Positions 24,313-30,675 of a stretch of DNA of 64,000 nt are shown piece after piece. Source of the stretch: Deltaproteobacteria bacterium (GTDB lineage Bacteria > Desulfobacterota > DSM-4660 > Desulfatiglandales > HGW-15); assembly GCA_016931115.1 (NCBI GenBank), contig JAFGFM010000038.1, positions 21,800 to 85,799 on the forward strand, written 5' to 3'. The notes beneath the pieces are model-generated. The model did not search any database and was not told the DNA's origin. It was given only the letters and a program-made list of their open reading frames with translations. Position 1 is the stretch's first letter, and each line of letters starts with the position of its first letter. Made by a program: the position numbers and the translations under genes.

Positions 24313-26028
24313 ATGACCAGATTAATGAGAAAAATATCTATTTTGTCCTGCTCTGTTTTCATGTGCGCACTTCTCATTGGCAATAGCGCCTTTGCAGCCG
24401 AAGAAAAAGCGCCAGCTGGAGAGGCAAAGGAACAGCCCAACCCCTTTGCCTATACACCGCCATCCCGTGAATGCACAAGGGCCATGCTAATAAAGGCAAC
24501 CGAGAGTTATATCGCAGCGCAGGAGGCAGGAAAGCCTTCAAAGATGTCACTAGCCAGGGATGTAAAATTTAAAGAGGATATGCTGGACATCTCAAAGGAT
24601 AAGAGCCTTATTAATACTGCCCTGCCAGTTGCCTTTCACAGGAGCATTTATGACAGCGCGCGATGCAAGACCTTCACCGAGGTGATAGTTACAGAAGGTG
24701 CTGAAAAATATGTTATCGGAACACGGCTTACTGTTGACAAGGGTAAGATCACAGAGGTTGACAGCCTTATTACAGATAAATCAGACTGGTTGTTTAATGC
24801 AGATGACTACCTCAAATATTCAAAGGCAGAGGAGTGGAAGGTCCTTCCCCTTGATGCCCGCGTCAGCAGGCAGGAGCTTATAAATTCGGCAAACAACTAT
24901 TTTGATTTTATCTTTCTTGATAAGGGTGTAAGAGCGCCCTGGGGGTCACCATGTGCAAGGCTTGAAGGTGGCGCATACACCAATGCCAATAATGAAGACA
25001 AGGACACCTGCCAGATACCTGGCCCGCTGGGTGAGATGTTTGTATCAAACCGCACATTCCTGGTTGATGAGGAGCTGGGCGCTGTAAATATCTACTGCCT
25101 CTTTGAGGACAACGGGGCAGGCATGCCTGATTCACATACATTCAGGCTTGAAAATGGAAAATACCGCTTCATTCATACCCTGAGCGTTAACAGAAATGAT
25201 AAGCCGGTAGAGGTCCCGGAATACAAACCGGCACCGGATCCTGAATGCGATCGTAATATGCTCAAGGCGATGGCAGCCAGCTATATACTTGCCCAGGAGG
25301 CAGGTGACCTTTCAAAGATGGCCCTTGCTGATAAGGTGAAATACCTGGAAAACATGTCAGAAACCACAAAGGAAAAGGGCATGTGGAATACCCCCCTGAA
25401 GATAGCATTTCACAGGAGCATCTATGATACAGTCCGGTGCAAGACCTTTACAGAGGTCATAGTGACCGAAGGCCCTGAAAAATATGTCCTTGGGACACGC
25501 CTTGCAGTTGATAAAGGAAGGGTAAAAGAGATAGACAGCCTGGTTACAAGTAAGAAGGACTGGCTCTTTAATGCAGATGATTTCCTTAAATATTCAAGCT
25601 CAGAAGACTGGGATATCCTTCCCCCTGATGACCGCATAAGCAGGCAGGCGCTGATCGATGCAGGTAACCAGTATTTTGACTATGTATTCATGGATAAAGG
25701 GATCAGGCCTCCCTTTGGACATATCCCTTGCGCAAGGCTTGAGGGCGGTGCATACACCAACCCAAAGGGTGAGGAAAAGGATACCTGCTGGATACCCGGG
25801 CCCCTTGGAGAGCTGCCAATTGTGGGCAGGACATTTGTGGTTGACGAAGATATGGGGACTATAAATGTCTTCTGCAGGTTCGGCGCATATAAAAATGGTA
25901 TGCCTGATTCACACACATTCAGGCTTGTCAGGGGAAAGTACAAATGGATCCACACATTGAGCGTTAACCTTACAGATCAGCCATTGGCTGTTCCTGATAA
26001 TGCGCCAGGTGTGCCGGAATCACATTAA
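24313..26028 (+). CDS. Exported protein with a tandem-duplicated ~270-aa domain (possibly DUF8021/SnoaL-like)
   Basis: Signal peptide; both halves share 'AFHRSIYD..RCKTFTEVIVTEG.EKYV.GTRL.VDKG', 'DWLFNADD.LKYS..E.W..LP.D.R.SRQ.LI', 'PCARLEGGAYTN...KDTC.IPGPLGE', 'GMPDSHTFRL'. Confidence 0.8.
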   Translation: MTRLMRKISILSCSVFMCALLIGNSAFAAEEKAPAGEAKEQPNPFAYTPPSRECTRAMLIKATESYIAAQEAGKPSKMSLARDVKFKEDMLDISKDKSLINTALPVAFHRSIYDSARCKTFTEVIVTEGAEKYVIGTRLTVDKGKITEVDSLITDKSDWLFNADDYLKYSKAEEWKVLPLDARVSRQELINSANNYFDFIFLDKGVRAPWGSPCARLEGGAYTNANNEDKDTCQIPGPLGEMFVSNRTFLVDEELGAVNIYCLFEDNGAGMPDSHTFRLENGKYRFIHTLSVNRNDKPVEVPEYKPAPDPECDRNMLKAMAASYILAQEAGDLSKMALADKVKYLENMSETTKEKGMWNTPLKIAFHRSIYDTVRCKTFTEVIVTEGPEKYVLGTRLAVDKGRVKEIDSLVTSKKDWLFNADDFLKYSSSEDWDILPPDDRISRQALIDAGNQYFDYVFMDKGIRPPFGHIPCARLEGGAYTNPKGEEKDTCWIPGPLGELPIVGRTFVVDEDMGTINVFCRFGAYKNGMPDSHTFRLVRGKYKWIHTLSVNLTDQPLAVPDNAPGVPESH

Positions 26029-26160: not shown

Positions 26161-27030
26161 ATGGACAAAGAATTTACCAGAAGAGAGATAATCGGCGCAG
26201 GGCTGGGGGTTGCTGCTGTTGCACTGGCAGGTGCAGCCATTTCTACAACAGCCGCTGCTCAGGAGGCCCCCGCCTCCAAGGCCGGGGCAAATACAGCAGC
26301 CGGTTTAAGCGAATTCAATAAATATGGTGAGGAGCTTGAAAATGGGCTGCTCTTAAGGACATCACCCATAGCAGTAAAGATGATCGAAAAGGAGGAGGAT
26401 ATACCCAAAGGGGCATTCAGGCCGAAAAGAGACGGGGGCATCCATATTGCCCAGTGTCAGGCATTCGGCATGTCACGGCGTCAGGGCAAGACCGTTGCCA
26501 TGCTTAAGGAGGATCACTGGTGCCCCACAGCGCTTATGGCCTATGGAATGGTTCCAAAGCAATCCGGAGGGTTTTTCGGCGAGGCCTATATGACCTTTGA
26601 TACAGGGAAATATATAGGAATTGTCACCGCACCGCTAAAGAGCGCGACATTCATGCCGGATGTGGTTATGATTTATATGAATCCTGCCCAGCTCAGGGGG
26701 GCTCTTCTTCCCATGAATTTTAGCGGGGCTGATCAGGTAAAGACAGAGTTGTTTCTCCCCTCATGCGGTCATGCAGTTGTAGATCCTATGAAAACCGGTA
26801 AATATGTGGTGGTGCTCCCTGACCCCGGAGAATACCAGAGGGGGCTTGCAACAGAGGATGAGATGATACTCTCTGTCCCTCAGGCAAAGATGCAGCCTTT
26901 TATGGCAAGTCTTAAGCAGAGGGGCAAGATGTATTCCCACAGGGATCAATATATGGATATGAAACCTGACTTTGAACAGCCGCAGTTCTATAAGGATATG
27001 TTCAAGCAATGGGGGCTTGGCCAGGAATAG
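26161..27030 (+). CDS. DUF169 family protein with a Tat-type signal
   Basis: 'FTRREIIGAGLGVAAVALAGAAIS' twin-arginine leader; DUF169-like 'AVKMIEKEEDIPKGAFRPKRDGGIHIAQCQAFGMSRRQGKTVAMLKEDHWC'. Confidence 0.85.
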   Translation: MDKEFTRREIIGAGLGVAAVALAGAAISTTAAAQEAPASKAGANTAAGLSEFNKYGEELENGLLLRTSPIAVKMIEKEEDIPKGAFRPKRDGGIHIAQCQAFGMSRRQGKTVAMLKEDHWCPTALMAYGMVPKQSGGFFGEAYMTFDTGKYIGIVTAPLKSATFMPDVVMIYMNPAQLRGALLPMNFSGADQVKTELFLPSCGHAVVDPMKTGKYVVVLPDPGEYQRGLATEDEMILSVPQAKMQPFMASLKQRGKMYSHRDQYMDMKPDFEQPQFYKDMFKQWGLGQE

Positions 27031-27134
27031 ACAATTATTCCTTGACAAACTGGATTCATTTTTATAAATGATTCCACAAAAATGACAGAGTGAAAAAATA
27101 TTCTGTCAGTCGATATTAAAATTTAATAACCATT

Positions 27135-27186
27135 AAAGCCTAGAAGGCCGAACCGGTACGAATACCGGACTAACCTTCCAGGCTTT
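27135..27186 (+). ncRNA. Structured intergenic RNA element or terminator with two coaxial stems and an asymmetric-sequence internal loop
   Basis: Outer stem AAAGCCTaGAAGG/CCTTCcAGGCTTT (one mismatch), internal loop CCGAA/ACTAA, inner stem CCGGTA-CGAA-TACCGG, followed by a T-tract; lies just upstream of the TonB receptor RBS. Confidence 0.6.
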
Positions 27187-27206
27187 TTTATTTTAAGGAG
27201 GAAGAG

Positions 27207-29171
27207 ATGAGAATAAAGAAGAAGATAGTCTTATACATGTCAATAATCACCCTGTTTTTCATAAGCCCTTTCATACCTGCTGATGATAAGACAGAAGAAA
27301 AAGAGGAAGAAAAAAAGGTTTATGTACTTGATGATATAGTGGTTACTGCACCGGCTATAATAAGCGAAAATGAGGTGAACAGGCTTGGAAGCCAGGTCAC
27401 CCATGTTTCAAAGGAACAGATCGAGGACCTCAATGCAATGGACCTCACTTCAGCCCTGCGCAGGGTGCCGGGTGTTGTAATATCAAGGCACAACCAGGTG
27501 GGGAGTTTCGGAGGCGGTGAAGGAGGGGCCATATTCATCAGGGGAAAGGGCAGCTCGCGCCCTGGCGCAGAGATCCAGATGCTGATAGACGGTATACCAA
27601 AATTTGTGAGCGTATGGACACACCCCATAATGGATGTCCTCAATGTGGATATTGTTGATACAATAGATATCTATAAAGGTGCGCAGCCTGTGCTTTTCGG
27701 AAACATGGCCTTTGGGGCAGTTGACATCCAGACAAAACGGATGAAAGATACCGGCTTTTATACAGGCATAAAATCAGGCTACGGCTCAAACAAGACACAT
27801 ATGGCTTCAGTGGAACACGGGGGCAAAACAGAGAGATTTGATTACTACCTGCTAGGCGGATACCGCAGTTCAGATGGTCACAGGAGAAATGCAGATGGCG
27901 AACTCCAGGATCTCTTCCTTCATATGGGGTATGATTTTACAGCAGAGTGGGATATGGATCTGACCATGATCTATACAGATAACTGGGCTGATGACCCTGG
28001 CCCTGTTGACCTCTCTTATCCTTCGGATGGCAGATTTAACAACGATGACCTTTTCGCGGTTGTCACCATATCCGGTAACTATGAGAGGGCAAAGGGTTAT
28101 GTTAAATTCTACAGCGACAAGGGGGATATAGACTGGGTAAACCAGGAGGGAACCCCTGGCTATGACACCCTGACAGATTATAAGAACTATGGGATAAGGG
28201 CGCGTGAGACCATAACCCCGTGGCAGAAAGGGGAGTTAATGGTGGGCATTGACCTTGATTACATCAGCGGAAAGGCCCGGTTCCTTCACCCTGTAGATGG
28301 CAACAGCGCATTCCCTGAAGAGACATTCCGAATCTTTTCTCCATATGCCTCTTTGAGCCATACCTTTGGAAGCATGGAAGGCATCTATTTTATACCCTCC
28401 ATTGGAGTCAGACACCTGAACCACACTGAATTTGATAGTGAAACAGCCCCGCAGGCAGGGATCATCCTGGGGATAAAAGAAACCAGGCTTCATGCCTCAT
28501 ATGGCAAAGGTATTAATTACCCGGGCATCTATGCAAAGGTCCAGGATAACCTGTGGATGCCCGGAGACAACAGGTGGTCTGAGCTTGAAGCAGAAAACCT
28601 TGATCACTTTGAGGCAGGGGTTGAGCACCGGTTCAGCAGTAAACTCATAGTTGATTTAACATGGTTTTATGACAGGGGAGAGGAGAGGATTGTAACATCA
28701 CCCCCTCCACCCTTTCCCCCCATCCTTACCAATATAGGGGAATATAAAAACAGGGGTATTGAAGGGAGTATCACGGCTGTTCCGATATCAGGCCTGTCAC
28801 TCTTTGGAGGTTTTACATATCTTGACTCTGCGCCCGATGACCTGCCCTATGCCCCGGAGTGGACATTCAGCACCGGGATCAATTACAGCCCTGTTGACAA
28901 TTTCCAGATCAGCATAGATACTCAATATGTTGATGATCAGTATGTCACCTCAAGGGCGCGCATGAGGAATACTGTTAATACGGATGAGGTGGATTCATAT
29001 TTTCTTGTAAACGGGAAAATCAGCTATGATTTCAGATTATCCGGTTGTGATGCTGACTGGCAGGTATTTCTGGCAGCAGAAAATATTACAGATACCGACT
29101 ATGAACAGAAAAAAGGTTACCCTATGCCGGACCTGGGTTTTATGATAGGGTTTAAGGCGGATTTTAACTAA
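27207..29171 (+). CDS. TonB-dependent outer-membrane receptor
   Basis: Signal peptide, TonB-box-like 'VYVLDDIVVTA', plug 'ALRRVPGVVIS...IFIRGKGSSRPGAEIQMLIDGIPKF...DTIDIYKGAQPVLFGNMAFGAVDIQTKR', terminal 'AENITDTDYEQKKGYPMPDLGFMIGFKADFN'. Confidence 0.94.
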   Translation: MRIKKKIVLYMSIITLFFISPFIPADDKTEEKEEEKKVYVLDDIVVTAPAIISENEVNRLGSQVTHVSKEQIEDLNAMDLTSALRRVPGVVISRHNQVGSFGGGEGGAIFIRGKGSSRPGAEIQMLIDGIPKFVSVWTHPIMDVLNVDIVDTIDIYKGAQPVLFGNMAFGAVDIQTKRMKDTGFYTGIKSGYGSNKTHMASVEHGGKTERFDYYLLGGYRSSDGHRRNADGELQDLFLHMGYDFTAEWDMDLTMIYTDNWADDPGPVDLSYPSDGRFNNDDLFAVVTISGNYERAKGYVKFYSDKGDIDWVNQEGTPGYDTLTDYKNYGIRARETITPWQKGELMVGIDLDYISGKARFLHPVDGNSAFPEETFRIFSPYASLSHTFGSMEGIYFIPSIGVRHLNHTEFDSETAPQAGIILGIKETRLHASYGKGINYPGIYAKVQDNLWMPGDNRWSELEAENLDHFEAGVEHRFSSKLIVDLTWFYDRGEERIVTSPPPPFPPILTNIGEYKNRGIEGSITAVPISGLSLFGGFTYLDSAPDDLPYAPEWTFSTGINYSPVDNFQISIDTQYVDDQYVTSRARMRNTVNTDEVDSYFLVNGKISYDFRLSGCDADWQVFLAAENITDTDYEQKKGYPMPDLGFMIGFKADFN

Positions 29172-29175
29172 GTAT

Positions 29176-30675
29176 ATGAGGGCGGTTATGTACAGATTCA
29201 GTTTCAAGGCATTTTTGTTCATTCTTTTTCTTCAAATACAGGTCTTTGCTCATGATGTGGCGCTCCCTGTAATTGTCGATACGGATATGGCGCTTGATGA
29301 CATCAGGGCAATCACCATGCTTTTAAACAGCGAGGTTGCTAACGTGCCCCTTTTTATTGTATCAGATGGTGTAAGGGCGCCTGAGGAGGGGATAAAAAAC
29401 CTGAAGGCCCTGCTTAACTACTTTGAAATGGGCGAGATTAGCGTAGTAAAAGGAAAGGAACTCGGCCTGACTGTACCTCCGGTAAGGCGGTATATAAAAA
29501 GCATAAATGTGCCTGGCAGTGAAAAGATCTCTGGAGTGGGGGCAGAGAAAAGCCCTGCGCCTGATGCAATTGTGAGTGTGCTGAAAGGTATGGATGAACC
29601 AGTGATCTATCTTTGTCTTGGCCCCCTTACAAGCCTGTCGGCTGCCCTTGAGATTGATCCTGCAACAGTGAGGAAAATATCCAGAATAGTTTATTACGGC
29701 TGCGCCCCTGACTCAGAAGACCCCGGCTGGAATACCCTTCGTGACCCAGAGGCCGCGCGAAAGGTATTTTCATCAGGAATAAAGATACAATCCATCTCCC
29801 TTCCTGAAAAAAGGCTGCTGCCATTTAATAATGCGCTCTATAAAAAGGCAATTACACAGGGGACAAGGGCATCAGGCCTCATAGAAATGGTGCATGAAAC
29901 AGAGACCATTAAGAAGATGCTCGGTGAAGGCCATTTTTATGTTTGGGATGAGATGACAGTCATCTATTTTAATGACCCATCTCTTTTCAGCTTTGAGCCA
30001 TCTCAGGCTAATAAAGATGTGATGGTTTTAAGGGATATCAACAGGAAGGGGCTTGAGTCAGCATACCTGAAGGCACTTGGACTCCCTGGCGATTTTCATC
30101 TGGAAACCAGAGAGGCTGTTGTATTTACCGGGATCCCGCAAGACCCCTCCATGTTTCAGGAGGATGTGCGTCCTGCTGTAAATCAGCTTATCAATATGTA
30201 TGGTATTGAGGAATGGAAGGCATGCCTGCTCACAAATGAATTCCACAGGCACCTGGGTATATATTCCATTGCAGGCGCCAAGATGGGTGTGAGGGCAAGG
30301 GAGATACTTGAGGCGCCCTTTGACTCACTGGAGGTAATTTCAAATGCAGGAAATAACCCGCCCTTAAGCTGCATGAATGACGGGCTCCAGGTCTCAACAG
30401 GCGCAAGCCTCGGGAGGGGCGCTATCAGGGTAACCGAAGGCAATACCCCTTCTGCACAGTTTTTATATAAGGATCTAAAACTCACCCTTACCCTTAAAAA
30501 AGAGGTCTGGGGAAAGATAAAAAATGATATAGGGATGCTTGTTTCAAAATACGGAGGGACAACACCTGAATACTTCAAAAAGGTGAGGGAACTCTCTATA
30601 GTCTACTGGAAGGACCTTGACCGGGCATTGATCTTTGACGAAAAGATGGAAAAGAGATTGACGGGAGTCGAATAA
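29176..30675 (+). CDS. Exported fusion: inosine/uridine nucleoside-hydrolase-like domain + FmdE-like domain
   Basis: Signal peptide; 'LPVIVDTDMALDDIRAI' (DxDxxxDD of IUNH); C-terminal 'HRHLGIYSIAGAKMGVRAREIL...LSCMNDGLQVSTGASLGRGAIRV' resembles FmdE. Confidence 0.8.
   Translation: MRAVMYRFSFKAFLFILFLQIQVFAHDVALPVIVDTDMALDDIRAITMLLNSEVANVPLFIVSDGVRAPEEGIKNLKALLNYFEMGEISVVKGKELGLTVPPVRRYIKSINVPGSEKISGVGAEKSPAPDAIVSVLKGMDEPVIYLCLGPLTSLSAALEIDPATVRKISRIVYYGCAPDSEDPGWNTLRDPEAARKVFSSGIKIQSISLPEKRLLPFNNALYKKAITQGTRASGLIEMVHETETIKKMLGEGHFYVWDEMTVIYFNDPSLFSFEPSQANKDVMVLRDINRKGLESAYLKALGLPGDFHLETREAVVFTGIPQDPSMFQEDVRPAVNQLINMYGIEEWKACLLTNEFHRHLGIYSIAGAKMGVRAREILEAPFDSLEVISNAGNNPPLSCMNDGLQVSTGASLGRGAIRVTEGNTPSAQFLYKDLKLTLTLKKEVWGKIKNDIGMLVSKYGGTTPEYFKKVRELSIVYWKDLDRALIFDEKMEKRLTGVE

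Follow-up and report, generated by a model that had tools for sequence, protein, structure and literature searches.

A nucleoside-hydrolase–FmdE fusion protein encoded in nickel-uptake gene contexts and its proposed role in nickel acquisition

The fusion gene and its family

The window, i.e. the whole stretch of 64,000 nucleotides analysed here, contains an uninterrupted ORF that starts 4 bp past a TonB-receptor gene and encodes a nucleoside-hydrolase (NH) domain joined to an FmdE domain. The TonB-receptor gene and a DUF169 gene were the only informative neighbours at this locus, the features of which are as follows:

26161–27030, + strand: DUF169 protein with a Tat-like N-terminus (Pfam DUF169, E = 8.8e-35)
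27082–27192, + strand: leader RNA of two hairpins, the upstream one followed by a terminator (fold z = -5.4, conservation in L036)
27135–27190, + strand: terminator hairpin AAAGCCTAGAAGGCC...CCAGGCTTTTTT, ending just before the ribosome-binding site of the TonB gene
27207–29171, + strand: TonB-dependent outer-membrane receptor (Pfam Plug, E = 1.8e-18)
29176–30675, + strand: nucleoside-hydrolase–FmdE fusion ORF, 499 aa (ORF list, Pfam IU_nuc_hydro and FmdE, homologues)
29176–29250, + strand: putative signal peptide, residues 1–25 (by eye)
29269–30012, + strand: nucleoside-hydrolase domain, residues 32–279 (Pfam, RihA/YbeK profile, Foldseek match to 1yoe)
29278–29301, + strand: DTDMALDD motif, residues 35–42
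29944–29949, + strand: W257–D258 of the NH domain
30241–30498, + strand: FmdE core, residues 356–441 (Pfam, 2gvi alignment, Foldseek of the FmdE half, ligands from PMC2954224)
30244–30252, + strand: putative metal ligands His357 and His359
30370–30372, + strand: putative metal ligand Cys399

The initial annotation had proposed a fusion of these two domains with an export signal, and both proposals were borne out. In the HMM search each half scored above its curated Pfam cut-off (IU_nuc_hydro, residues 32–279, E = 5.8e-26, 92.3 bits, cut-off 34.2; FmdE, residues 356–441, E = 1.6e-10, 41.6 bits, cut-off 22.9), and the predicted folds agree with this assignment. The N-terminus, read by eye, resembles a signal peptide (...QVFA|HDV) with a predicted mature start at His26, suggesting that the protein is exported to the periplasm. 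Nearly all homologues of the Desulfobacterota type and some from Bacteroidota have an AH junction; His26 was nevertheless rejected as a universal N-terminal metal ligand, as it is kept in Desulfobacterota-type members and absent from many Bacteroidota. The gene order at the DUF169 gene is the same in L036, from the same genus, and its conservation was seen within the genus only. Upstream of these genes (24313–26028), the window codes for a 571-aa exported protein with two similar halves and without a Pfam or NCBIfam match.

Searching 198 related genomes for the same fusion yielded about 10 full-length homologues (43–87% identity). Relatives at 42–87% identity carry the fusion at full length, and both halves and their motifs are conserved together in the alignment. 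When one genome per prokaryote species was scanned, 70 further fusion ORFs longer than 400 aa came to light. Overall, there are about 70 full-length homologues in as many genomes (28–87% identity), carried by Desulfobacterota-type, Bacteroidota, Acidobacteria, Zixibacteria, Aminicenantes, Delongbacteria and Verrucomicrobia records, and both Pfam families were matched in all 52 scanned members, i.e. those of the structural alignment. A frameshift or assembly artefact joining two genes, considered from the outset as a way in which the fusion could prove spurious, was rejected, given that the ORF is intact and conserved at full length across many independent genomes. Both halves are under purifying selection, with dN/dS values relative to the same-genus homologue of about 0.10 (NH half) and 0.085 (FmdE half). 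The fusion gene of one relative (L017/L035, G018:C14) contains frameshifts or stops and is likely a pseudogene or an assembly error. No paper joining NH and FmdE domains, and none linking FmdE to TonB, was found in the open-access literature; the FmdE fusions described in 2010 involve molybdopterin-binding and UPF0066 domains only (PMC2954224).

Folds and conserved site residues

The AlphaFold model of the mature fusion, built with 52 sequences, had a mean pLDDT of 91 and a pTM of 0.64; because of this pTM value, the relative placement of the two halves is uncertain. Nucleoside hydrolases were the top Foldseek matches of the model (best 1yoe, E = 6.8e-15), and the NH half matched the PDB profile of RihA/YbeK (E = 1.9e-27). 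The FmdE half modelled alone reached a pLDDT of 87, and its four top Foldseek matches were 2gvi, 2glz (two chains) and 3d00, such that structure prediction with Foldseek confirms both folds.

With nucleoside hydrolases (PF01156; RihA/YbeK 1yoe and 3g5i, IAG-NH 1hoz and 4i71) the fusion shares not only the fold but also the DxDxxxDD, Asn and Asp metal/ribose residues. The metal motif DTDMALDD, recognized in the initial annotation, occupies residues 35–42 and its Asp positions are conserved: D35, D37, D41 and D42, together with N186 and D258, are kept in 69–71 of 71 sequences across phyla, and by alignment they correspond to Asp10/14/15, Asn168 and Asp242 in the classical enzymes. In contrast to these enzymes, the fusion is exported, joined to FmdE and linked to nickel genes; moreover, most fusion members carry Trp or Cys where the leaving-group His would be, and the segment contacting the 5'-OH, which classically ends in E-F-N, is shortened and ends in G-W-N. 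Since this His and the residues in contact with the 5'-OH are missing, classical nucleosidase activity is doubtful. Purine-specific IAG enzymes are likewise not known to have a leaving-group His. The hydrolase half keeps its residues for Ca2+ and the ribose diol, and its likely target, to be bound or cleaved, is a ribosylated metal ligand.

In the FmdE half, the motifs HRHLG (residues 357–361) and CMNDGLQVSTGASLGRG (residues 399–415) contain the putative metal site. Profile alignment to 2gvi placed H357, H359 and C399 at the ligands His16, His18 and Cys61, and Gly361 at Cys20; all four residues are invariant (71/71). The fusion thus shares with the FmdE family (PF02663; 2gvi, 2glz, 3d00; PMC2954224) the fold as well as the His, His and Cys of the Zn/Ni site, and the FmdE half probably holds a metal via His357, His359 and Cys399. 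The metal site of the FmdE homologue B8FYU2_DESHY contained mixed Zn and Ni (PMC2954224). Unlike other members of PF02663, the fusion is joined to an NH domain, shows no C-terminal zinc finger and has the invariant Gly361 at the fourth ligand, the cysteine of HxHxC (Cys19/Cys20 in solved FmdE structures), whereas the equivalent of Cys55/Cys61 is retained as Cys399. The initial annotation had remarked on a different substitution, that of the usual second Cys (GCT of TGCT) by A-S; that Cys is no metal ligand in the solved FmdE structures. Formylmethanofuran dehydrogenase genes were not noticed in any of the fusion neighbourhoods. FmdE (PF02663) structures have been solved since 2006 and we know of no agreed function for the family.

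Nickel-uptake genes, NikR boxes and a leader RNA at fusion loci

Neighbouring genes were counted within six genes of the fusion at 70 loci, many of which are short contigs; a NicO-labelled membrane protein was left out of the nickel counts because its match was weak. NikR was present at 17 of the 70 loci, NikR or a nickel ECF gene (CbiM/NikM, NikN, CbiQ, NikK, NikL) at 34, a TonB receptor at 37 and any of NikR, ECF, NikK, NikL or TonB at 47, while 23 loci had none of these neighbours, some of them despite long flanks. The identity of neighbouring NikR (NCBIfam NF003381, 158 bits, cut-off 105) and NikL (NF058648, 157 bits, cut-off 100) was confirmed. The flanks of the fusion at Desulfobacterota-type loci comprise a TonB receptor, an exported tetrapyrrole-methylase-like protein, DUF4198 (NikK type), an amino-acid permease and a small NikL-like protein, and ExbB/ExbD/TonB lie at a greater distance. 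Bacteroidota have the fusion in gene runs such as NikR–TonB–fusion–CbiM–NikN–CbiQ–ATPase (for example L093) or NikR–CbiM–NikN–CbiQ–ATPase–fusion. The exported tetrapyrrole-methylase family proteins from these operons (PF00590; L038:6057-6965, L056, L057, L059, L063, L067, L071) probably represent a repurposed binding fold because SAM is unexpected in the periplasm. In Bacteroidota, small exported DUF6702 proteins, one or two per locus, directly adjoin the fusion (L077, L079, L083, L085, L088, L097, L099, L102; identity confirmed by Pfam in L079 only).

PMC545781 gives GTGTTAC-N13/14-GTAACAC as the NikR box consensus of delta-proteobacteria. With at most one mismatch, 11 NikR boxes were found in the fusion loci, compared with 0–1 for each of 12 permuted half-sites, and most are located 28–42 bp upstream of NikR or TonB genes. 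NikR-like sites of the fusion gene itself (L075 and L089) have two mismatches and lie 35–39 bp upstream. Exported FmdE halves without NH adjoin CbiM/CbiQ in L104 (with NikR), L124 and L127, and a Verrucomicrobia MAG (L100:9857-12124) encodes NH–FmdE–CbiM–PDGLE as a single ORF, in which CbiM is without its first 47 profile positions and which, coming from one MAG, may reflect an assembly or deletion event. The stand-alone exported FmdE proteins (n = 5) and the four-part ORF suggest that FmdE is the constant nickel-linked part and NH the addition. A correlation of NH presence with that of a TonB receptor was set aside, five stand-alone proteins being too few for the comparison.

The initial annotation had regarded the physical linkage of FmdE to a ribohydrolase as a functional clue. 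As a clue the linkage holds, but NikR, NikR boxes, NikMNQO/NikKL and TonB point to nickel acquisition and not to nucleoside metabolism. The fusion shares the neighbourhood, the NikR boxes and exported accessory proteins with an AH mature end with the NikKLMNQO ECF systems and the NikR regulon (PMC545781, PMC11247825). No FmdE-type or NH-type component is described in the parts of these papers that were consulted, and neither NikK nor NikL is a homologue of the fusion.

NikR was not detected in the genome of the window, and the window contains no NikR box within two mismatches. The genome does contain a single CbiM gene, behind which lie those of NikL (171 bits, cut-off 100) and of a DUF4198 protein. 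The leader RNA of the window is kept in L036 with a compensatory change. Of 86 genomes examined from the order, 39 contain the pattern AAGCCNNGAAGGN{15,44}GGCTTTT, with about 58 matches in all versus 3 for the reversed control, and its single match in the window's 5.18-Mb genome is at the TonB–fusion operon. An ANGAA-pentaloop hairpin with a stem of at least 5 bp is located upstream at 29 of 45 distinct sites (5 of 980 shuffles), and the variable base in AAGCCANGAAGG and its partner in the terminator covary. Genes behind the leader (window, L054, L059, L061, L063, L067–L069, L105, L161–L190) code for TonB receptors, CbiM, FecCD, SBP_bac_5, DUF4198, DUF3450, DUF3842 and three FmdE proteins. ANTAR antiterminators consist of two hairpins with hexaloops carrying A1 and G4, the second overlapping the terminator; the layout of the leader resembles this at the 29 sites, with two hairpins and the second overlapping a terminator, but its loop is the ANGAA pentaloop and the first hairpin of the window copy is non-canonical. 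Rfam gave no convincing match to the leader (sub-threshold only, best E = 0.15), and a cobalamin or other known riboswitch was discarded as no Rfam family, tRNA aside, exceeded the threshold in ten loci and the window. On the basis of these sequence patterns, the ANGAA hairpin and the AAGCCANGAAGG...GGCUUUU terminator are a candidate for a new attenuator or antiterminator RNA.

A proposed role in nickel uptake

The nickel-uptake context of the fusion family is well supported, and from these gene surroundings in many bacteria we infer a role in nickel acquisition. We consider it fairly probable that the fusion is exported to the periplasm and belongs to a TonB-linked system for the uptake of nickel, possibly of cobalt too, including metal capture, ligand handling and hand-over. 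A TonB receptor would carry a metal complex over the outer membrane and the FmdE half would capture the metal with His357, His359 and Cys399, the Gly at the fourth classical ligand leaving the site open for exchange. The hydrolase half would bind, and probably cleave, a ribosylated ligand or chelator through its Ca2+/cis-diol pocket, freeing nickel that could then be handed to an inner-membrane ECF transporter of the NikM/CbiM type. The periplasmic location, metal binding by the fusion, catalysis, the ligand's identity and hand-over are the predicted elements of this scheme. Weighing against it are the 23 loci with none of the nickel or TonB neighbours, the absence of a detected NikR from the genome and of a NikR box from the window, the window locus with TonB and DUF169 as its only informative neighbours, and the doubtful nucleosidase activity of the NH half.

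The scheme could hold for nickel uptake without catalysis, the pocket of the hydrolase half binding a metal complex or docking partners while FmdE does the work. The replacement of the leaving-group His by Trp or Cys, the loss of the 5'-OH contacts and the stand-alone FmdE proteins in the same kind of locus make this quite conceivable, if somewhat short of probable; the metal-motif Asp residues, N186 and D258, conserved in 69–71 of 71 sequences across phyla, and a dN/dS of about 0.10 fit a used active site instead. That the fusion serves the uptake of cobalt or of corrinoids/tetrapyrroles rather than nickel appears rather unlikely, as NikR and its boxes specify nickel, NikL and NikK are neighbours and a cobalamin riboswitch was found neither in ten loci nor in the window, even though the names CbiM and CbiQ, the exported tetrapyrrole-methylase-like proteins of many Desulfobacterota-type loci and the leader element shared with FecCD and SBP genes would suit such a role. 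Membership of the NH family is clear from sequence and fold and would be expected if the protein were an exported hydrolase for nucleoside salvage, with FmdE as an accessory domain and nickel genes nearby only by chance. This explanation is disfavoured and seems very improbable, since NikR/ECF neighbours recur across phyla, NikR boxes are present and no nucleoside-metabolism family is prominent among the recurrent neighbour clusters.

Within the favoured nickel-uptake role, a tentative and more far-reaching proposal, less likely than not, is that of an undescribed metal-release enzyme, in which a periplasmic N-ribohydrolase with an FmdE trap would destroy a nucleoside-like nickel ligand, such as the nickel-pincer nucleoside or another ribosylated chelator, FmdE domains in general being nickel/cobalt modules that are placed under a new attenuator RNA class in NikR-less relatives. 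Periplasmic esterases that free siderophore metal provide an analogy for the destruction of a nickel ligand. An active hydrolase half would mean that bacteria release nickel through cleavage of a ribosylated ligand; no such route was found in the searched literature. The NikR boxes over the fusion, the exported FmdE beside CbiM and the FmdE proteins behind the metal-transporter leader make nickel/cobalt handling a testable role for FmdE.

The search for nickel users in the genome of the window covered NiFe hydrogenase, CODH and LarA/LarB/LarC. Hydrogenase and CODH were rejected as nickel consumers because none was found over the cut-off in this genome. A LarA-type nickel-dependent enzyme is encoded together with LarB and LarC (nickel-pincer genes); salvage of the nickel-pincer cofactor by a host unable to make it was likewise dismissed as unneeded, given LarB and LarC, and the presence of LarA, LarB and LarC makes a nickel-pincer enzyme a likely user of nickel.
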